Below, piece by piece: positions 10,515-21,914 of a stretch of 64,000 bases of DNA; the first letter of the stretch is position 1, and each line of letters starts with the position of its first letter. The stretch covers positions 1 through 64,000 of the forward strand of contig NZ_MQTQ01000041.1 of assembly GCF_020532805.1 (NCBI RefSeq), read 5' to 3'. The position numbers and the translations under genes were made by a program. The notes below the pieces were generated by a model. That model was given only the letters and a program-made list of their open reading frames with translations, did no database searches and was not told where the DNA came from. Source of the stretch: Arthrobacter sp. SO5. GTDB lineage: Bacteria > Actinomycetota > Actinomycetes > Actinomycetales > Micrococcaceae.

Positions 10515-11606
10515 TTAGTGCCCGGACGCTGCCAGCTCGGCCAGCAGCTCGGCCTTGCGTTCCTCGCTCGCGAAGGAGGAACGGATCGAGTTCGCGGCCA
10601 TCCGCACGCAGTCGAACTCGGACAGGCCAATCACGGATTTGAGCTGCGCGAAGTTGTCGTCCACGTAGCCGCCGAAATATGCGGGATCGTCCGAGTTCAC
10701 GCTCACATTCAGGCCCGCTGCGAGCATTGCCGGCAGCGGGTGCTCCGTCAGGGTGTCCACGGCGCGGAGCCGGACGTTGGACAGCGGGCACACGGTCAGC
10801 GGCATCAGCTCCTGCACCAGCCGTTCCACCAGCTCGGGGTCCTCCATGCAACGGATCCCGTGGTCGATCCGCTCCACGTCAAGGAGGTCCAGCGCATCGA
10901 TGATGTACGACGGCGGGCCCTCCTCCCCGGCGTGCGCGATCCGGCGCAGCCCGGCGTCCTTGGCCCTGGCAAACAGCCGCTGGAACATCGCCGGCGGGTT
11001 GCCCACCTCGGCCGAATCGAGGCCGATGCCCGCGATTGGCGCGTTCATGGCCAGCAGCTGGTCCAGCACCTCGAGCGCGGAGTCCTCGGAAAGGTCCCGC
11101 AGGAACGCGGCGATGAGCAGGGTGGAGATCCCGAACTCCTCACGGGAGGTTGCCAGCACCGAGGCCACCCCGTTGACGCAGGTCTCCAGGGCCACCCCGC
11201 GGGACAGGTGCGCCTGCGGGTCCAGCATGATCTCCGCATGCCGGACCCCGGCGAGCGCTGCCCGGGACAGGTAGGCCCGGGTCATGTCCGCGAAGTCCTG
11301 TTCGGTCTGCAGCACGGCCATGTTGGCGTAGTAGAGGTCCAGGAAGGACTGCAGGTCGGTGAATTCGTAGCGGGAGTGCAGCTCGTCCAGGCCGGCATAC
11401 GGCAGCTGGATGCCGTTGCGTTCCGCGAGGGCGAAGATCAGCTCGGGCTCGAGGGTTCCCTCAATGTGCAGGTGGAGTTCCGCGACTGGCAGCGGGCCGT
11501 GAACCCCCTCGGGGACCTCGGCGAATTCGGGGACCTCGGGGGTGGCGGCTGCTGGGCTGTCCGGTGCAGCGCCTTCGGTGGCGGCGGCGCCGTCGTTAGT
11601 TTCCAT
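10515..11606 (-). CDS. adenine/adenosine deaminase
   Basis: A 363-residue metal-dependent hydrolase of purine salvage. Zinc-binding and catalytic motifs are present: HLHIEGTLEPE (residues about 43-53), HAGEEGPP, IDHGIRC and SVNSDDPAYFGGY. HAGEEGPPSYI and DPAYFGGYV are closer to the adenine deaminase (fungal AAH1-like) subgroup than to classical adenosine deaminase, so adenine to hypoxanthine is the favoured reaction. The first 35 residues are an acidic Ala/Pro-rich extension. Start is ATG 11606; the open frame continues far upstream but that part is antisense to the UvrA-like gene. No Shine-Dalgarno precedes the ATG, suggesting a leaderless transcript. Start codons of the two divergent genes are only 48 bp apart. 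Confidence 0.88.
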   Translation of the reverse strand: METNDGAAATEGAAPDSPAAATPEVPEFAEVPEGVHGPLPVAELHLHIEGTLEPELIFALAERNGIQLPYAGLDELHSRYEFTDLQSFLDLYYANMAVLQTEQDFADMTRAYLSRAALAGVRHAEIMLDPQAHLSRGVALETCVNGVASVLATSREEFGISTLLIAAFLRDLSEDSALEVLDQLLAMNAPIAGIGLDSAEVGNPPAMFQRLFARAKDAGLRRIAHAGEEGPPSYIIDALDLLDVERIDHGIRCMEDPELVERLVQELMPLTVCPLSNVRLRAVDTLTEHPLPAMLAAGLNVSVNSDDPAYFGGYVDDNFAQLKSVIGLSEFDCVRMAANSIRSSFASEERKAELLAELAASGH

Positions 11607-11654
11607 TCGGTAAGGATATGCCCGCTGGTGGCAGGCACCGATAGAGTCGATTGG

Positions 11655-14243
11655 ATGCACAGTGCCCAGCATGCTTCCGATCCGTCCGGCCCCGCCATTC
11701 CAGGCGTGGGCGCCAGCCATCCCACGGACGGTTTTGTCCGGGTGCGCGGCGCCCGGGAAAACAACCTCCGGAACGTGGACGTGGATGTGCCCCGCGATGC
11801 GATCGTCGCGTTCACCGGGGTGTCCGGTTCGGGCAAGTCCTCCCTGGCGTTTGGCACCATCTACGCCGAGGCCCAGCGCCGGTACTTCGAGTCCGTGGCG
11901 CCCTACGCCCGGCGGCTGATCCAGCAGGGCCACAACCCCAAGGTGGAAATGATCACCGGGCTGCCGCCCGCCGTCGCGCTTCAACAGCGCCGCGGGACGC
12001 CCAGTTCCCGTTCGACCGTGGGGACCGTCACGACGCTGTCCAATTCGCTGCGGATGCTCTTCTCCCGCGCCGGCAGCTACCCCGACGGGGCCAGCCAACT
12101 CGATTCGGACGCGTTCTCCCCGAACACCGCCGCCGGCGCGTGCCCGGAATGCCACGGGCTGGGCATCGCGCACACCGTGACCGAGTCGTCCCTGGTCCCG
12201 GATCCCGCACTGAGCATCCGCGACGGGGCGATCGCCGCGTGGCCCGGCGCGTGGCAGGGCAAGAACCTGCGCGACATCCTCACCCACCTCGGCTACGACG
12301 TCGACACCCCTTGGCGGAAGCTGCCCAGGGAGGACCGCGACTGGATCCTGTTCACCGAGGAACAGCCCGTGGTGGAAGTGACGCCCCAGCGCGACCGGGT
12401 GGCGAAGCCGTACAAGGGCCGCTTCTGGAGCGCAAAAAGCTACGTGCTGCACACCCTCGCCGATTCCAAGAGCACCACCATGCGCGACCGTGTGCTGCGC
12501 TTCATGGAAACCGGCCCGTGCCCGGTCTGTGGCGGCGCCGGCCTGACGCCCGCCGCCCTCGCCGTGACCTTCGCCGGCCGGAACATCGCCGAACTCAACG
12601 CCGTGCCCATGAGCGAACTGGCCGAGATCATCCGCCCCACCACCGCGCTGACGGCCGCCGGGACCGCCTCGCGCAAGCAAAGCTCCGGTGAGGGCAATGA
12701 GGTGGCTGTCGCCATCACCCGGGACCTGCTGCAGCGGGTCACCGTGCTGCTGGACTTGGGCCTGGGCTACCTCGCCCTCGGCCGGTCCACGCCCACGCTC
12801 TCCCCCGGCGAGATGCAGCGCCTGCGGATCGCCACGCAGCTGCGCTCCGGCCTTTTCGGCGTGATCTACGTACTGGACGAGCCCTCCGCGGGCCTGCACC
12901 CGGCCGACGCCGAACCCCTCCTCGCCGTCCTGGACCAGCTCAAGTCCTCCGGCAACTCGGTGTTCGTGGTGGAGCACAACATGGACATCGTCCGCCGCGC
13001 CGACTGGCTGGTGGACGTCGGCCCGCGCGCCGGCGAAGGCGGCGGCGAGGTGCTCTACAGCGGCCCCGTCGCCGGGCTCGCCGAGGTGGACGCGTCCGTG
13101 ACCCGGCCCTTCCTGTTCCCGGACGGGTCGGGGACACCGGACGGTTCCAGGACAGCCGACGACGGCGGCTCCGCAACGGGCGCACGCCGGGAAGCTGACG
13201 GCTGGCTGCAGCTGCGCGACATCAGCCGCCACAACCTGCGCGAACTCGACGCCGATTTCCCGCTCGGCGTGCTGACCGCGGTCACCGGCGTCTCAGGCTC
13301 CGGCAAGTCGACCCTGGTCAGCCAAGTTCTCGCCGAGGTTGTCGGCGCCCACCTGCATCCGGACGCCGACGCCGTAACTGCCCCCGAAGACCTGGAGTCC
13401 GCGGACGCCGAGTCCGCCGAGCCGCTCAGCGTGGGCCCGGTCTCGGGACTGGACCGGCTGGACCGCCTGGTCAAGGTGGACCAGAAGCCGATCGGCCGCA
13501 CCCCGCGTTCCAACCTGGCCACGTACACCGGGTTGTTCGACGCCGTCCGCAAGGAGTTCGCGGCGACGGACGAGGCCAGGGCCCGCGGTTTCGGCGCCGG
13601 CCGCTTCTCCTTCAACGTCGCGGGCGGCCGCTGCGAAACCTGCCTGGGCGAGGGCTTCGTCGCCGTCGAACTGCTCTTCCTGCCCGGCAGCTACGGCCCC
13701 TGCCCGGAATGCCACGGCTCGCGCTACAACCCGGAAACCCTCGAAGTCACCTACCGCGGCAAGAACGTCGCGGAGGTCCTCGGCATGACCGTCAACGCCG
13801 CCGCTGAGTTCCTGGACGCGGTCCCCGCAGCCGCGCGCAGCCTGCAGACCCTGCGCGAGGTTGGCCTGGGCTACCTGCGGCTGGGACAGCCGGCCACGGA
13901 GCTTTCCGGCGGCGAAGCCCAGCGCATCAAGCTCGCCACCGAACTGCAGCGCGCCCAGCGCGGACACTCGCTCTACCTGCTGGACGAGCCCACCACCGGC
14001 CTGCACCCGGCCGACGTCGAACTCCTGATGGCGCAGCTGCACCGGCTGGTCGATGCCGGCAACACGGTGATCGTGGTGGAACACGAGATGGACGTGGTGG
14101 CCGCAGCGGACTGGGTGATCGATCTTGGACCGGCCGGCGGCGACGCCGGGGGCAAGATCATCGCGGTCGGGACGCCCGCCGCCGTCGCACGGTCCACCAA
14201 GAGCCGGACGGCGCCGTACCTGGCCGCAGTGCTCGGGGACTGA
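11655..14243 (+). CDS. UvrA-like ATPase lacking the UvrB-binding domain
   Basis: An 862-residue double ABC protein. Both halves are present: Walker A FTGVSGSGKSSLAFG (residue ~54) and VTGVSGSGKSTLVSQ, signatures LSPGEMQRL and LSGGEAQRI, and Walker B YVLDEPSAGLHP and YLLDEPTTGLHP. The C-terminal zinc finger (CETCLGEGF and CPECHG) is complete. In the first half, sequence runs from SNSLRMLFSRAGSYPDG straight to ACPECHGLG, so the UvrB-binding domain and the first CxxC pair of canonical UvrA (about 950 residues) are missing. This matches the UvrA2/drug-resistance-type paralogues rather than the excision repair subunit. The first signature has Pro for Gly. Start ATG 11655 is supported by divergence from the deaminase; a much longer open frame upstream is a shadow. 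Confidence 0.9.
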   Translation: MHSAQHASDPSGPAIPGVGASHPTDGFVRVRGARENNLRNVDVDVPRDAIVAFTGVSGSGKSSLAFGTIYAEAQRRYFESVAPYARRLIQQGHNPKVEMITGLPPAVALQQRRGTPSSRSTVGTVTTLSNSLRMLFSRAGSYPDGASQLDSDAFSPNTAAGACPECHGLGIAHTVTESSLVPDPALSIRDGAIAAWPGAWQGKNLRDILTHLGYDVDTPWRKLPREDRDWILFTEEQPVVEVTPQRDRVAKPYKGRFWSAKSYVLHTLADSKSTTMRDRVLRFMETGPCPVCGGAGLTPAALAVTFAGRNIAELNAVPMSELAEIIRPTTALTAAGTASRKQSSGEGNEVAVAITRDLLQRVTVLLDLGLGYLALGRSTPTLSPGEMQRLRIATQLRSGLFGVIYVLDEPSAGLHPADAEPLLAVLDQLKSSGNSVFVVEHNMDIVRRADWLVDVGPRAGEGGGEVLYSGPVAGLAEVDASVTRPFLFPDGSGTPDGSRTADDGGSATGARREADGWLQLRDISRHNLRELDADFPLGVLTAVTGVSGSGKSTLVSQVLAEVVGAHLHPDADAVTAPEDLESADAESAEPLSVGPVSGLDRLDRLVKVDQKPIGRTPRSNLATYTGLFDAVRKEFAATDEARARGFGAGRFSFNVAGGRCETCLGEGFVAVELLFLPGSYGPCPECHGSRYNPETLEVTYRGKNVAEVLGMTVNAAAEFLDAVPAAARSLQTLREVGLGYLRLGQPATELSGGEAQRIKLATELQRAQRGHSLYLLDEPTTGLHPADVELLMAQLHRLVDAGNTVIVVEHEMDVVAAADWVIDLGPAGGDAGGKIIAVGTPAAVARSTKSRTAPYLAAVLGD

Positions 14244-14311: not shown

Positions 14312-15172
<861 letters not shown>

Positions 15173-17030: not shown

Positions 17031-17492
17031 CTATGGGCAGACGAGCGTCAGCTGGAAAGCGGCCCCGGTCCAGCTGCCGACCCGGGCCTTGATTTCCAGG
17101 GTGAAAGTTCCGGCCTTCGAGGACGTCCTGCTAAGGACAAAGCCGCCGGGGGCGACCGTCTGGCTGGAGGTACTGCCGTCCGGCGCCGTCACGGTGGCGA
17201 TGTACGACGTTGCCTTGCTTACCGCCGCGAAGCTCGTGATGTTGGCGGTGGCGCCGCGAGGGCCTTTGTTACAGGTGCCGGAGCCCGTCGCCGTCGCAGG
17301 TGCCGGTATCGAATACGTCCCCACGGCCATCGACGAGCCAGTTTTCGCTGTGAAGGTCGCGTAGGCAAGACCGGGGGCGCCCAGTACCAGGGCCACGGCT
17401 ACCGGCACGGCCAGCAGGCGGCGCAGGCGCACCAGCCATACGGGCGAGAGCCGCGGGGCTGCTGTGGCTGAACTGGGCTGGACGACGTTCAC
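17031..17492 (-). CDS. small secreted SipW-type/TasA-like protein
   Basis: A 153-residue exported protein. After a basic N-terminus (LVRLRR, residues 20-25) comes a hydrophobic helix (residues 27-45) ending GLAYATFTAKT, the kind of junction seen in SipW-dependent substrates such as TasA and camelysin. The mature part (about 107 residues) is Thr/Ser/Ala-rich beta sequence (PATATGSGTCNKGPRG, then FTLEIKARVGSW) with two cysteines that could pair. Start is GTG 17492. It lies opposite the response regulator (starts divergent) and near a SipW-type peptidase and a second TasA-like protein, so a shared extracellular-fibre or matrix role is inferred. Confidence 0.65.
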   Translation of the reverse strand: MNVVQPSSATAAPRLSPVWLVRLRRLLAVPVAVALVLGAPGLAYATFTAKTGSSMAVGTYSIPAPATATGSGTCNKGPRGATANITSFAAVSKATSYIATVTAPDGSTSSQTVAPGGFVLSRTSSKAGTFTLEIKARVGSWTGAAFQLTLVCP

Positions 17493-17663
17493 TGGTGCTT
17501 TCTGGCTGGCGGGTGATCTCCTGGCTTCAACTCTGACAGCGCCGCCTCAAGTCGAAGCCGGGTTCCGGATCAACATTTGCTCAAGATCAAACCGTGTTAG
17601 CCTGAAACGGCTGTGACACGTGGGGCGGGCGTGACGTACTTATCCCTCTCAGAAGCTGGGTTC

Positions 17664-18626
17664 ATGTTTGATGCACCGGGACAACTCCGCGCTGTTGTCG
17701 TCGATGACGACAGCGACGTCCGCCTGCTGATTCGCCGGACTCTGGAGATGCAGGGATTCGCCGTTATCGAGGCTGCCTCCGGGGCCGAAGCCCTACTCAG
17801 CATCAATGAACACCAGCCGGACATCGTCACTCTGGACCTCAACCTCCCTGATCTGGACGGTGTGGAAGTGTGCCGCCGGCTGCGCAAGTTCTCCGACGCT
17901 TACGTCTTCATGATCACGGCCCGGGTGGACGAGATCGACGAACTCATTGGCCTGGAAACCGGCGCCGACGACTTCATTGGAAAACCGTTCAGCCCCCGCA
18001 CGGTCCAGGCCCGGGTGTCCGCGGCGTTGCGCCGGCACCGCCCTACCCCGCAGCGCCCCACTCCCCAGCGCCGCGCCACTGACTTCCTGCCGGCCGGAAC
18101 TGCTGACCGCCGCGCCGAATCGGGTTCCACTACCGGTTCGGAGGCGAGCCGGACGCCGCAACGCCGGGCCACCGACGTCGGACCCGCCACGGCGGAAGCC
18201 TCCCCATCCGCAACCGCCGGTGCGGCCGGACGCGATCGCCGCGCCCCGGCTGCCGCCCGCACCCCGGAATTGTCCGGCGTCCCGGATTCCGCCGGCGTCC
18301 CGGAACCCGCCGGCGTCCTGCGGCATGGGCCACTCGTTGTGGAGCCCGAGGCCCGGACTGCCACGCTGGACGGCGCCGAACTGGTGTTGACGCGCACGGA
18401 ATTCGACCTTCTCGAATCGCTGACCGGTGCGCCGCGCCGGGTATGGACCCGCAAAGCCCTCCTGACCAAGGTCTGGGGCAACGAATGGGCCATGGACGAG
18501 CACCTCGTTGAAGTACACATCGGCAACCTGCGCAGGAAGCTAGGCGACAAGGGCCGGGAACCTCGGTTCATCCGCACAGTGCGCGGAGTCGGTTACCGGA
18601 TGGCTCCAGCCGAAGAGGTGGTGTAG
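17664..18626 (+). CDS. OmpR/PhoB-family response regulator
   Basis: A 320-residue two-component regulator. The receiver domain (residues 8-125) has acidic residues VVDDDSD, phospho-acceptor Asp58 in TLDLNLPDLDG and the conserved Lys in DFIGKPFSP. The C-terminal 95 residues are the winged helix (LVLTRTEFDLLESL, then EVHIGNLRRKLGDKG and RGVGYRM). Between them is an unusually long disordered linker of about 100 residues with repeated TPQRRATD and GVPDSAGVPEPAGV motifs. ATG 17664 is preferred because receiver domains normally start about eight residues before the acidic pair; GTG at 17613 or 17631 are alternatives. The sensor kinase follows 75 bp downstream. Confidence 0.88.
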   Translation: MFDAPGQLRAVVVDDDSDVRLLIRRTLEMQGFAVIEAASGAEALLSINEHQPDIVTLDLNLPDLDGVEVCRRLRKFSDAYVFMITARVDEIDELIGLETGADDFIGKPFSPRTVQARVSAALRRHRPTPQRPTPQRRATDFLPAGTADRRAESGSTTGSEASRTPQRRATDVGPATAEASPSATAGAAGRDRRAPAAARTPELSGVPDSAGVPEPAGVLRHGPLVVEPEARTATLDGAELVLTRTEFDLLESLTGAPRRVWTRKALLTKVWGNEWAMDEHLVEVHIGNLRRKLGDKGREPRFIRTVRGVGYRMAPAEEVV

Positions 18627-18701
18627 CTGTCCCCGGCATCGCCCGCCCGCTCTGCGGCAGCCGGCTCGTCAGACACCGAAGCCGGCGCGAGCCGGGAGGC
18701 C

Positions 18702-19925
18702 GTGCTCACGGAATACGGGCTGCCGCACCTCGAACCCGTCGGCGTCCGGACCGGCGCAGGGACTCCCCCCGACACGCTCGGCCAACTCCAGAAACTGCTG
18801 GTCCTGGCCACTAGTTCAACCGGCATCCCATCCGGCGTCGTCAACATCATCACTGCCGACCAGCAGCATCATATTGCGGCGGTGGGGATCGATCCCGGCG
18901 TGTGTTCCCGTGAAGATTCGATGTGCGCCAGGGTCTTCCTCCGCGGCGAGACCACCGTGGTGCCGGACGCGTCCCGGGACCCACTGTTCCATGACCACCC
19001 TTTTGTCACCGGGCGCGTGGCTTCCATCAGGTTCTACGCGTCGGTCCCGCTCATCACGACTGCGGGGTTCGCGCTGGGTTCGCTGTGCGTCTTTTCCCCC
19101 GCCCCCGCCGAGCTCTCCCCGGACCAGCAAACGGCGCTCGAAATCATCGCCGCCCAGGTGGTTGAGGTCCTTGAGCTCCAGCACCACGCCCGCATGCTCG
19201 CCCGGAGCCTGGCAGAGGCCCGAAACAGCAACGCACTCCTGGAATCGTTCGCCGGACGCATCAGCCACGATCTGCGCAACCCGCTGACCAGCGTCATCGG
19301 CTTCACCGAGCTCGGTGAACTGCGGAACCCGGCGGAGGCCGAAGACTTCCGCATTATCGGCAGGACCTCGCGCCGGATGCTGGCCATGGTGGACGATATT
19401 CTGTCATTCTCCCGAATCGGGGGTGCACTCCGGCCCGGCCAGGTGTCCCTCGCGGCATTGGTCCACGGAGTTGAGGAGGACCTGGCTTTCAGCCTCGGCG
19501 AGGCCGGGGCGGAAATCAGGGTTTCCGACGTCGTGCTGCAGGCCGATCCCGAACAGCTGCGCATGTTCCTGCAGAATCTCATCCAGAATGCCGTGGCTTA
19601 CCGGCGCCCTGACGTCCCGCCGAGAATTCGGGTCACGGCCGAGGCCGTCGAGGACGGGGTTGCTGTGCGTGTCACGGACAACGGCAAGGGCATTCCGGCG
19701 GAAGAGCGGGGACATGTCACGGAGCCCCTGGTGCGATTGCATCGCGCCGACGACCCGCCCGGTTTCGGGCTGGGGCTGGCAACGTGTGTCCGGATCGCCC
19801 AGGCCCACGGTGGACGGCTGGAGATCAGCTCCGCCCCCGACGGCGGTACCACTGTTTCACTTATTCTCCCCGTGCCGGTGGTTCCCGGCTGGACGCCGGC
19901 TGCAGCAACCCCCGACGCCAGCTAG
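18702..19925 (+). CDS. GAF-domain sensor histidine kinase
   Basis: A 407-residue soluble kinase without transmembrane helices. Residues about 25-165 form a GAF sensory domain (VCSREDSMCARVF, VASIRFYASVPL, LGSLCVFS). HisKA follows with His189 in RISHDLRNPLTSVIGF. The ATPase domain shows N box QNLIQNAVAY, G1 DNGKGIP and G2 GFGLGLATC. It should sense a cytosolic cue and phosphorylate the upstream response regulator. GTG 18702 has GGGAGG close upstream. Its TAG stop shares the CTAG tetranucleotide with the convergent Hpt-like gene. Confidence 0.9.
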   Translation: MLTEYGLPHLEPVGVRTGAGTPPDTLGQLQKLLVLATSSTGIPSGVVNIITADQQHHIAAVGIDPGVCSREDSMCARVFLRGETTVVPDASRDPLFHDHPFVTGRVASIRFYASVPLITTAGFALGSLCVFSPAPAELSPDQQTALEIIAAQVVEVLELQHHARMLARSLAEARNSNALLESFAGRISHDLRNPLTSVIGFTELGELRNPAEAEDFRIIGRTSRRMLAMVDDILSFSRIGGALRPGQVSLAALVHGVEEDLAFSLGEAGAEIRVSDVVLQADPEQLRMFLQNLIQNAVAYRRPDVPPRIRVTAEAVEDGVAVRVTDNGKGIPAEERGHVTEPLVRLHRADDPPGFGLGLATCVRIAQAHGGRLEISSAPDGGTTVSLILPVPVVPGWTPAAATPDAS

Positions 19926-20323
19926 GACTCGGGGCGGGTCCAGGGCTCGCCCGGGGCCGGCACTGAGGACTCAAGGAGTGCCCCGAGGTGCTGGGCGAAG
20001 TCGGCCGCAGTGGAGTCGAGTTCCCCGGCAGCAGCCAAGGCAGCCTCGAGATCTCCGGCGCGGATGCACCGCTCCACCGCCCGGCTGCGGCCTTCGAGTT
20101 GAATCGCCCCTGCCATCGCCGCCGACGTCGCGACGCTGCGGATCGCGGCCAAAGCGCACTCGCTCTTGCCCTCGAACAGGCTTTGGTGGACGCACGTGAG
20201 CCGGTCCGGCAAGCGTTCGAGAAACCGGCAGACGAAGCCAACGGCATAGGACCTCGACTCCAGTTCGACGGCGAGGCGGTCGAACTGCCCGGTGTCCAGG
20301 ACCATGCCGTTGCCGTAGTTCAT
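19922..20323 (-). CDS. Hpt-like protein lacking the phospho-accepting histidine
   Basis: A 133-residue all-helical protein. The region LAVELESRSYAVGFVCRFLE followed by CALAAIRSVATSAAMAGAIQ and ERCIRAGDLEAALAAAGELD has the layout of a histidine phosphotransfer domain, but the position expected to be His in the usual A-H-x-L-K-G-S motif is occupied by Arg (AIRSVATSAAMAGA) and the Lys-Gly pair is absent. It could act as a docking or inhibitory partner of the kinase rather than a phosphorelay carrier. Its ATG overlaps the TGA of the signal peptidase gene (ATGA, 20320-20323), so it is translationally coupled to it. Hpt assignment is by pattern only. Confidence 0.6.
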   Translation of the reverse strand: MNYGNGMVLDTGQFDRLAVELESRSYAVGFVCRFLERLPDRLTCVHQSLFEGKSECALAAIRSVATSAAMAGAIQLEGRSRAVERCIRAGDLEAALAAAGELDSTAADFAQHLGALLESSVPAPGEPWTRPES

Positions 20324-20985
20324 GACTGGCTCGACTCCGCTGCCTCGTTGTCCGGCTTGGCCGGCTCGGCAGGCTTTCCCCAGATAGAGGTCAGGAGCAC
20401 CCCGACGAGCAGGGCTGGCGCCCCGTAGAGGAGGACAGTCTGCACGAGTGGCTGGCGGAGCGCCCGGATGCCGTCGCCGAGGTAGGGGACAATTCCCGCG
20501 GTGGTGTACACGTAGTCCTGGGACAGGACAGCCGTCCACGGGTCCGGCCCGGGGTTGGCGTCCCCCTTGGTGGTCACGGAGGTCACGCCGGCGTCGTCGC
20601 GGTTGAGGCCGGTGACCCGGTGGGTTTCAATCCGGTGATCGTCAACGGGAATGCTGTAGGTGATGACGTCGCCAGTCTCGAGGTCGGCGACAGGAGTCCG
20701 GACGCTGACCACAACATCGCCCGGGTTGATCCCCGGCGACATGCTCCCGGTGAGCATGGTGGACGTCTGGTAGTTCAGGAACCGCGGTCCCACCGCGAGG
20801 AACAGGAAAAGCAGGGCAGCGACGACCAGGGTGAGCGTCAGGACGGCCCGGCCCACTGCGGCAATGGCCTTCGACGCCGGGCGCCGTACGGTTGCCGACG
20901 GCGTCGAGGCCCGCCGCCGGCCGCGGCCCGGAGTGGCTGCGAGTTCACTCTGGTCAGGAACGCTCATGGAGATGACGTCGCTCAC
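20320..20985 (-). CDS. sipW: ER-type (SipW-like) signal peptidase I
   Basis: A 221-residue membrane peptidase. One N-terminal helix (residues 46-66) precedes the catalytic domain; a second lies near residues 183-203. Catalytic Ser81 is in TGSMSPGI; the general base is His122 in ETHRV instead of the Lys of ordinary bacterial enzymes, and KGDAN supplies Asp142. This Ser-His-Asp set defines the SipW/ER type, which processes TasA/camelysin-like substrates. Start GTG 20985 follows GGAAAGGA. It lies downstream of the TasA-like gene, separated by a strong hairpin, and is coupled to the Hpt-like gene. Confidence 0.9.
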   Translation of the reverse strand: MSDVISMSVPDQSELAATPGRGRRRASTPSATVRRPASKAIAAVGRAVLTLTLVVAALLFLFLAVGPRFLNYQTSTMLTGSMSPGINPGDVVVSVRTPVADLETGDVITYSIPVDDHRIETHRVTGLNRDDAGVTSVTTKGDANPGPDPWTAVLSQDYVYTTAGIVPYLGDGIRALRQPLVQTVLLYGAPALLVGVLLTSIWGKPAEPAKPDNEAAESSQS

Positions 20986-21028
20986 GGGGGTCCTTTCCCT
21001 GCCGGCGTGGATGGTGCGGGTCTAGCGA

Positions 21029-21069
21029 AGGAGCCCAGTTCGGCCGGGTCCGGGCCGAACTGGGCTCCT
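21029..21069 (-). terminator. intra-operon hairpin between substrate and peptidase genes
   Basis: AGGAGCCCAGTTCGGCC (21029-21045) pairs perfectly with 21053-21069 around a 7-nt loop. It follows the TasA-like stop (21095) and precedes the sipW start (20985). There is no U-tract; it may be a partial terminator or an RNA-stabilising hairpin that lowers peptidase expression relative to its abundant substrate. Confidence 0.7.
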
Positions 21070-21094
21070 GTGAAACGCTACTGGGCGGTAGTAG

Positions 21095-21715
21095 TTACTT
21101 GTTGGCGGCGCCGCGCTGTATGGCGGTGAAGGCGAAACTCATAACACTGTTCAGGCCCTGGAACGTGTTGTCCGCGGAGGCCGGCACGGTGAGCGTTACC
21201 CGGAGGTTATCGGCCTTCGTCGCGGTCACCGAGGCGAGTCCGGTCAACGCGATGGCGTTGCCGGTCACAGCCCGGGAAGCCAGAACAGCCGTGGTGGTGC
21301 CGGTGCAGGTGTAGGTGAATGAAGGAGACGTGCCCGCCTCGGTCCACGGCACAGAACAACCATCGATCTTCAGCTGCAGGCCGTTCACAGGATCCGAGTC
21401 CAGCTTGGAGGACGGTGCACCGGCGGTGGTGGTGAGAGTAACTGCGGCCAGGTCTTGGTCACCGCTGTTGGTCAAGGTCACCGCACGCTGGATGGTGTCG
21501 CCCGGAACTGCTCCTGAGGCCGCGACGGCGAGCCGGTTTGTCGCGCCGGCTGCACCGACGTCGAACTTGACGGTGCCGGCGGCCACGGCCGCAGAGGCGG
21601 ACGTGCTGCTCGTGAACCCACCGTAGGTGCCCATGCCGGCAACGCCGGCTGCTGCGGCGAGGAGTGCGGCGGAGGCAAGGACCTTGCTGGACGTGGACTT
21701 GAGGCTGAGACCCAT
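21095..21715 (-). CDS. TasA/camelysin-like secreted protein
   Basis: A 206-residue exported protein with a SipW-type signal: SSKVLASAALLAAAAGVAGM (residues 9-28) followed by GTYGGFTSSTSA, and a mature domain of alternating beta strands rich in Ala, Thr and Val (AAGTVKFDVG, IQRAVTLTNSGDQDLAAVTL, ATKADNLRVTLTVPASA). The TLTNSGDQDL motif is typical of TasA-domain proteins, in which this strand mediates fibre assembly. Two cysteines (CSVPW, YTCTG) may form a disulfide. Start ATG 21715. It heads the operon with sipW and the Hpt-like gene. Role in an extracellular fibre or biofilm matrix is inferred from family. Confidence 0.82.
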   Translation of the reverse strand: MGLSLKSTSSKVLASAALLAAAAGVAGMGTYGGFTSSTSASAAVAAGTVKFDVGAAGATNRLAVAASGAVPGDTIQRAVTLTNSGDQDLAAVTLTTTAGAPSSKLDSDPVNGLQLKIDGCSVPWTEAGTSPSFTYTCTGTTTAVLASRAVTGNAIALTGLASVTATKADNLRVTLTVPASADNTFQGLNSVMSFAFTAIQRGAANK

Positions 21716-21914
21716 GAGAGATTCCGTTCGTAGAGCCGGGCCATGGGCCCTGAGCTTGGTGGTTATTGTCGCCGGCCCCCAAAGGCTGACAAGAACAACA
21801 ATGCCGGGCTCCTTTCAAGGCAGGGCCTCGGTGGAAAACAAGATCACTTCAAGTTTTCCTCAAGGCCGTACTGAACGGTTCACCGGGTTTCAAGAACACT
21901 GGCAGACTGGCCCT

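Follow-up and report, generated by a model that had tools for sequence, protein, structure and literature searches.

A TasA/SipW surface-protein locus of Arthrobacter in which a phosphoacceptor-less Hpt protein may dock the response regulator at the signal peptidase

The window analysed here is a stretch of 64,000 nucleotides of Arthrobacter sp. SO5 (positions 1-64,000 of contig NZ_MQTQ01000041.1), and the locus under study, at 17031-21715, encodes a TasA-like secreted protein, a SipW-type signal peptidase and, in a gene overlapping that of the peptidase, a protein resembling histidine-containing phosphotransfer (Hpt) domains. This last protein belongs to a bacterial family that keeps the Hpt fold and has lost the phosphoacceptor histidine, hereafter pseudo-Hpt. 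Its members recur behind SipW, are fused to SipW or lie beside OmpR-type response regulators. We read the whole, with a probability of roughly one half, as a self-regulated TasA/SipW surface-protein locus whose dead Hpt docks the regulator at SipW, with export feeding back on transcription.

Gene order and its conservation

The minus strand carries, in this order, the genes for the TasA/camelysin-family protein (21095..21715), the endoplasmic reticulum (ER)-type signal peptidase SipW (20320..20985) and the pseudo-Hpt (19922..20323), whose ATG overlaps the sipW stop as ATGA. Two genes run towards them on the plus strand, one for an OmpR-type response regulator with a long Ala/Pro-rich linker (17664..18626) and one for a GAF-HisKA-HATPase histidine kinase (18702..19925). 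Beyond these, again on the minus strand, lies a gene for a short secreted protein of 153 residues (17031..17492). All six genes that an earlier note, made from the sequence alone, had reported are present where it placed them.

The comparison used, as named loci, the best 80 of 132 confirmed relatives of SipW, all searched with profiles built from a first locus set; 77 of them extend at least 2.5 kb past sipW and 68 at least 1 kb upstream of it. They come from Arthrobacter, Pseudarthrobacter, Paenarthrobacter, Sinomonas, Nocardioides, Blastococcus, a few metagenome-assembled genomes and one doubtful record. The doubtful record (L099) is titled Vibrio cholerae strain 35D and carries Arthrobacter-type TasA/SipW DNA, and is therefore probably mislabelled or contaminated. 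TasA is found upstream of SipW in 59/68 loci, and a pseudo-Hpt gene follows sipW on the same strand within 1.5 kb in 60/77 (in L144 the gene for the short secreted protein separates the two). The gene for the short secreted protein is present in 47/77 loci and a convergent regulator within 3.5 kb in 32/77, regulator and pseudo-Hpt occurring together in 27/77. Among 23 loci taken from family genomes, a set that overlaps the named one, 19 have a pseudo-Hpt within 400 bp after SipW and 11 have a regulator nearby. The order TasA, SipW, pseudo-Hpt, convergent regulator, short protein is repeated in Sinomonas, Pseudarthrobacter and Nocardioides. Recurring as it does in named genomes, the arrangement is more than chance; the linkage, whose absence from related genomes the earlier note had named as grounds for refutation, holds beyond the genus, Nocardioides included. 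In L173 (4126-5278) a pseudo-Hpt gene was also seen directly 3′ of a TasA gene, with no SipW in the fetched stretch.

An Hpt fold without its phosphoacceptor

The Pfam Hpt family reaches the window protein below threshold (E 0.028, 15.1 bits against a cut-off of 24.6) and, at E up to 1, picks up 26 of 27 members of the family, the best at 3.1e-9. Searched against PDB, the pseudo-Hpt family profile places Hpt structures on top, with 7c1i, HptB of Pseudomonas aeruginosa, at E 4.9e-11 (1.2e-9 with a second alignment). An AlphaFold2 model computed from 54 sequences has a mean predicted local distance difference test score (pLDDT) of 87.3. Foldseek returns phosphotransfer proteins in the first 23 rows for this model (best E 0.0028, none below 0.001), and VIA-align aligns it to 7c1i with Z 16.3 and 2.3 Å over 115 residues, all of rows 1-21 being phosphotransfer proteins and the first unrelated chain scoring Z 12.9. 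By these comparisons the window protein has the four-helix Hpt fold.

The phosphoacceptor column was defined by alignment to the histidine of 7c1i. In the SipW-centred alignment (97 rows, some genomes appearing twice) no histidine stands in this column among the 96 rows with a residue there: Leu is found in 85, Val in 6, Arg in 2, Met in 2 and Gln in 1, the window protein being one of the two with Arg. A wider set of 135 distinct rows holds one His, 133 other residues and one gap. As a control, canonical Hpt domains of distant Actinobacteria, found with the same family profile, have His in the column in 28/28 cases (the control alignment has 30 rows, the other two being members of the pseudo-Hpt family). 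Gly at position H+4 is likewise absent from all 134 rows (V 40, T 38, I 29, S 14, A 10, L 2, W 1), the window protein having Thr. Two positions nearby are conserved, namely Ser right after the lost His (129/134) and Gly ten residues on (134/134). In yeast Ypd1, Val or Leu at H+4 abolishes phosphotransfer and leaves receiver binding within about threefold (PMC6341664). The pseudo-Hpt family therefore seems suited to docking a receiver domain while no longer passing on phosphate.

With no phosphoacceptor histidine, the window protein cannot be an ordinary phosphorelay member, and such a role was rejected on this ground. The Hpt resemblance and the coupling to the peptidase proposed in the earlier note are borne out, the relay role that would go with them is not. 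Strong members of the family (E <1e-20) appeared, in a phylum-wide search of 396 genomes drawn evenly, only in the two genomes of the window's genus, and His is present in every one of the 28 weaker matches with a locus that was read. A tblastn search of a plasmid collection with the Hpt-like protein returned no match.

Fusions of SipW and pseudo-Hpt

A single open reading frame without internal stops is matched by both the SipW and the pseudo-Hpt profile in 19 of the 80 loci. One of these contains unresolved bases, which leaves 18/80 clear cases; the linkers of 12 were read. Nine of the fused frames belong to the Arthrobacter echini/bussei/ruber group, five to the A. alkaliphilus/terricola group and three to Nocardioides, the rest being single occurrences. 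On a quick SipW tree of variable support the fused state requires at least six changes, with or without the unresolved case. Pfam detects both domains in the two fused proteins scanned, mostly below cut-offs. SipW is predicted to have an N-terminal transmembrane segment, an outer catalytic domain, a C-terminal transmembrane segment and a cytosolic tail; its end is a hydrophobic segment with a polar tail, and the fused pseudo-Hpt domain follows that tail, which by the usual topology would put it in the cytosol.

Two loci keep the partnership without the peptidase. In L072 the regulator, the pseudo-Hpt and the flanking genes are as in the fused loci and the SipW part is absent, and L165 has the same regulator and pseudo-Hpt pair with no SipW; no TasA was found in either genome. 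In the four genomes of Arthrobacter echini type (L238-L242), TasA and the fused gene stand apart: three have them at a distance of about 18-47 kb on one contig, and the fourth has them on different contigs.

Regulators and kinases beside the pseudo-Hpt

Pseudo-Hpt copies not linked to SipW were followed in a set of 62, made of all 61 such matches among the 82 listed from 197 family genomes and one further copy. An OmpR-type regulator lies within 400 bp of 40 of them, convergent in 38, a count that replaces the 23/35 obtained from a chosen part of the copies. Around 26 of the 40 regulator-linked copies the fetched stretch also contains a PAS-HisKA kinase, all of one family. The window genome itself has such a triad on contig 55 (L081, 3325-6494), where a second pseudo-Hpt, a regulator and a PAS-type kinase occur with no SipW or TasA beside them.

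The window regulator gives strong Pfam matches to Response_reg and Trans_reg_C; its receiver catalytic residues are present, and the phosphosite together with the winged-helix domain makes it of OmpR/PhoB type (an alternative GTG start at 17613 is possible). Across the regulator rows, in which some genomes appear twice, the phosphosite Asp is kept in 56/58 and the Lys in 58/58. Distances of pseudo-Hpt and receiver domains correlate at 0.36 given SipW and at 0.58 given the DNA-binding domain (28 loci), which agrees with a pairing of pseudo-Hpt and regulator and could also be accounted for by shared ancestry.

The GAF kinase, itself assigned by strong Pfam matches, shows no membrane segment by eye and no receiver domain in Pfam. 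A kinase was seen between regulator and pseudo-Hpt only in the close neighbours L084, L085 and L243 (genome G204, 80% identical). Homologs of the window kinase are found in 35/61 genomes of the genus at E 1e-40 or better, other homologs being at best about 50-55% identical, and TasA or pseudo-Hpt is absent from the fetched stretch around 13 of the 14 homologs whose surroundings were retrieved, the exception being that of G204. The kinase was consequently discarded as a core part, its homologs lying elsewhere in those 13 contexts. Five of six Sinomonas loci have, on the far side of the short gene, a kinase from a different family, with a PAS domain in the one scanned. The idea of a two-component system of the locus' own, taken as a conserved kinase-regulator pair, does not survive this comparison, nor the distribution of the regulator around SipW given below.

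Candidate operator boxes

The regions upstream of tasA and those separating the regulator and short genes show a strong excess of seven-mers around CTTGAGG/TCTTGAG. The pattern TTGA-N7-TTGA, with half-sites exactly 11 bp apart, occurs in 30 of 61 regions upstream of tasA, where 0.44 would be expected and 100 resamplings gave no more than 3, and in 16 of the 22 intergenic regions between regulator and short genes, where 0.2 would be expected and resamplings gave no more than 2; the other half-site spacings tested reach at most 4/61 and 1/22. The promoter sequences are related, so these counts are not independent events. CTTGA-N7-TTGA occurs in the window only at 21849-21864 and 17570-17585 (0.08 expected; 1 of 100 shuffles of the window had two or more). 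The former site is part of a candidate box upstream of tasA with three half-sites 11 bp apart (CTTGAGGAAAACTTGAAGTGATCTTG, 21839..21864, minus strand), and the latter is a candidate box in the spacer of the divergent regulator and short genes, with a pair of half-sites at the same 11-bp distance (CTTGAGCAAATGTTGA, 17570..17585, minus strand). The tasA promoter holds the genome's only match to the triple pattern; the double pattern is found 14 times genome-wide against 5 for a reversed control, and is therefore not a clean regulon marker. A promoter-like site for tasA-sipW-pseudoHpt, TTGTCA-16-GACAAT, lies at 21765..21792 on the minus strand, as a consensus match only (1 against 0.3 expected in the scanned region).

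Regulators of OmpR/PhoB type typically use direct repeats spaced by roughly one turn. The boxes are putatively bound by the regulator of the locus, and their presence at the tasA and regulator/short promoters makes control of the locus by its own regulator likely, in keeping with the signal-controlled locus that the earlier note had suggested. Regulators paired with SipW-unlinked pseudo-Hpt copies have the box upstream in 1/17. CTTC half-sites spaced by 11 bp are present in the five regions upstream of TasA from the Arthrobacter echini/ruber/bussei-type group (13 against 0.04 expected). The recognition helix reads HIRNLR or HVRNLR in regulators beside fused genes and HIGNLR or HVGNLR in the others. 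A covariation of box and recognition helix was considered and dropped: L126 has HIRNLR yet a TTGA box, and the regulator beside TasA in L241 is LuxR-like by eye.

The peptidase and its candidate substrates

The TasA-like protein matches PF12389, the camelysin family, with 37.2 bits (cut-off 22.5), and a profile search finds a single TasA-family gene in this genome. A profile of 47 TasA-like sequences has the TasA structures 8aur and 5of1 as its top PDB matches, but weak ones (whole-sequence E 0.0016 and 0.0029, respectively; best single stretch of 8aur 1.1). Going by this family membership, the locus may make an extracellular fibre or surface layer.

SipW matches TIGR02228 with 65.7 bits (cut-off 51.85) and is the one protein of the genome above that family cut-off. 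The residues Ser81, His122 and Asp142 are exactly those that had been read as catalytic, and are unchanged across 23 aligned SipW sequences. Against NF046067, the equivalog of Bacillus SipW, it scores 56 bits and falls short of the cut-off of 190. A second SipW-like protein of 494 residues is encoded on contig 7 of the same genome (L002, 1372-2856); its C-terminal half looks like a separate secreted-type domain, LamG-like by eye, and directly upstream of it is an open reading frame of 201 residues of the SipW-type secreted kind.

The short secreted protein is conserved in relatives and matched no family above cut-off in family searches. Its N-terminus has a hydrophobic segment with an AYATFTAK stretch, which we take to be a SipW-type motif. 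The AlphaFold2 model (mean pLDDT 82.9) is one fibronectin type III (Fn3)-like beta domain, with VIA-align Z 11.1 to 3r8q over residues 61-152 (85 aligned). Cys 74 and Cys 152 are conserved; among 44 sequences one Cys is invariant, one nearly so, and one Trp is invariant. No chain named TapA is among the PDB matches of its profile, and the VIA-align results consist of Fn3 and similar folds without TapA, which proves nothing on TapA identity. The protein might, as a guess, serve as a fibre adaptor or anchor.

Elsewhere in the window, an open reading frame at 14468-15172 resembles, by eye, a resuscitation-promoting factor with a LysM end, and a long one at 10518-14243 looks UvrA-like (an ABC protein) over its C-terminal two thirds, its true start probably lying far downstream of the listed one.

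Relation to known systems

Among the titles and beginnings of abstracts listed in a literature search, several of whose listings covered part of the matches (20 of 28, 20 of 55, 12 of 1,207 and 10 of 152) and which left out most subscription journals, there was no SipW-Hpt linkage and no actinobacterial TasA system. The B. subtilis tapA-sipW-tasA operon likewise places a TasA-family substrate beside a dedicated ER-type signal peptidase. Its gene order differs, the regulators given for it in the passages of PMC8072697 consulted are SinR, Spo0A and RemA with no pseudo-Hpt named, and an equivalence of TapA with the Fn3-like protein would be putative.

The closest functional parallel is plant AHP6, an HPt protein without the phosphoacceptor His that acts as a negative regulator of a phosphorelay (PMC7402358). 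The window protein shares this combination of Hpt fold and missing His that marks AHP6-type pseudo-HPts, whereas its family is found in bacteria, in company with a signal peptidase and in many cases an OmpR-type regulator, and inhibition is putative here. Bacterial Hpt domains without His occur in ChpA, where they are not phosphorylated in vitro and their function has not been established (PMC10782961), but those are modules of a CheA kinase and the present ones stand alone or form the C-terminal domain of a signal peptidase. HmrB of Caulobacter has been proposed as an atypical HPT without the HxxKG motif (PMC11481889); it is a helical hairpin with candidate phosphorylatable His residues, in contrast to a complete Hpt fold with the His column lost. 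HptB (7c1i), which is both the nearest solved fold and the best sequence-profile match, has its phosphoacceptor in an AHSFKG stretch that aligns with the pseudo-Hpt family, in which this His is missing. The components are of known kinds, and their union is a new variation on them.

A proposed mechanism and its alternatives

In the reading we prefer, a kinase, probably the GAF kinase next door in this case, would phosphorylate the OmpR-type regulator, which would bind the boxes of 11-bp direct repeats ahead of tasA-sipW-pseudoHpt and ahead of the regulator/short pair, controlling both. SipW would cleave the TasA-like and the Fn3-like substrates. The pseudo-Hpt, made from the overlapping gene or as the cytosolic C-terminal domain of SipW, would be a catalytically dead dock for the receiver of the regulator, probably holding it at the peptidase and damping its activity, whereby tasA transcription would respond to how much export machinery there is or how far it is occupied. 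Export of the fibre protein and the switching on of its gene may thus be directly connected. The anatomy of the locus stands on good evidence; box binding by this regulator, docking, the sign of the feedback and fibre formation are inferred. More tentatively, and as a possibility rather than an expectation, the peptidase could itself act as a membrane regulator whose dead Hpt captures the cognate regulator, substrate load or peptidase abundance releasing or holding it, and secretion flux setting transcription.

Several observations weigh against this reading. The nearest relatives, L082 and L083, have TasA, SipW, regulator, boxes and short protein but no pseudo-Hpt (nor kinase), which makes the pseudo-Hpt dispensable there, and it is absent from 17/77 loci altogether. 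Of the 60 loci with a pseudo-Hpt, 33 are without a regulator in the surrounding 3.5 kb; several of these still have the box, so another regulator could use it. The box pattern is missing from most Nocardioides and all Blastococcus tasA promoters scanned. Away from SipW, 22/62 copies have no regulator within 400 bp, a few adjoining a kinase instead, and two regulators have Glu at the phosphosite. One SipW-unlinked copy convergent with a regulator (L297, 4081-4689) does have His in the phosphoacceptor column, with Thr and not Gly at H+4. Finally, Ser at H+4, seen in 14/134 pseudo-Hpt rows, also occurs in about 10% of ordinary Hpts (PMC6341664).

Part of this would be explained if the TasA/SipW operon were under ordinary two-component control and the pseudo-Hpt were a stabiliser of SipW or a leftover without signalling, as L082 and L083 manage without it and the boxes account for regulation without it. 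We consider this unlikely in view of the 40/62 copies that have a regulator within 400 bp and no SipW beside them, of L072, which keeps pseudo-Hpt, regulator and flanks though its SipW part is gone, and of the Ser and Gly that stay conserved around the lost His.

It is rather improbable, too, that the pseudo-Hpt binds a kinase or hybrid kinase and not the regulator, lowering phosphorylation upstream. AHP6 sets the precedent, having been suggested to compete for kinases (PMC7402358), and the PAS-HisKA kinases near 26 of the 40 regulator-linked copies, and beside a few regulator-less ones, would suit it; the regulator, however, is the commonest neighbour, and kinases at SipW loci differ or are absent.

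The docked complex could also activate, SipW and pseudo-Hpt being a positive co-regulator of matrix genes. B. subtilis SipW is indeed bifunctional, with a second, biofilm-specific role (PMC4238804), the mechanism of which is not explained in the portions of the literature consulted. We hold activation to be a slim prospect, damping being more likely by the analogy to AHP6. A canonical phosphorelay from kinase through Hpt to regulator, with the Hpt beside SipW for co-expression only, would agree with the fold, with the neighbouring kinase and regulator and with the one SipW-unlinked row in 134 that has the His, and is highly improbable against a His absent from 96/96 SipW-centred rows and present in 28/28 canonical domains, and a local kinase without a receiver domain to feed an Hpt.

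Significance

The comparisons outline a bacterial pseudo-Hpt family, often found beside response regulators, and provide a candidate operator for actinobacterial TasA genes. If the docking of the regulator at SipW is true, pseudo-Hpt/regulator pairs would be a new class of two-component accessory, plugged here into an export enzyme. A domain of a regulator-docking type is recurrently attached to the peptidase of a matrix protein in soil bacteria, and thereby offers a concrete, testable route from an export enzyme to transcription.

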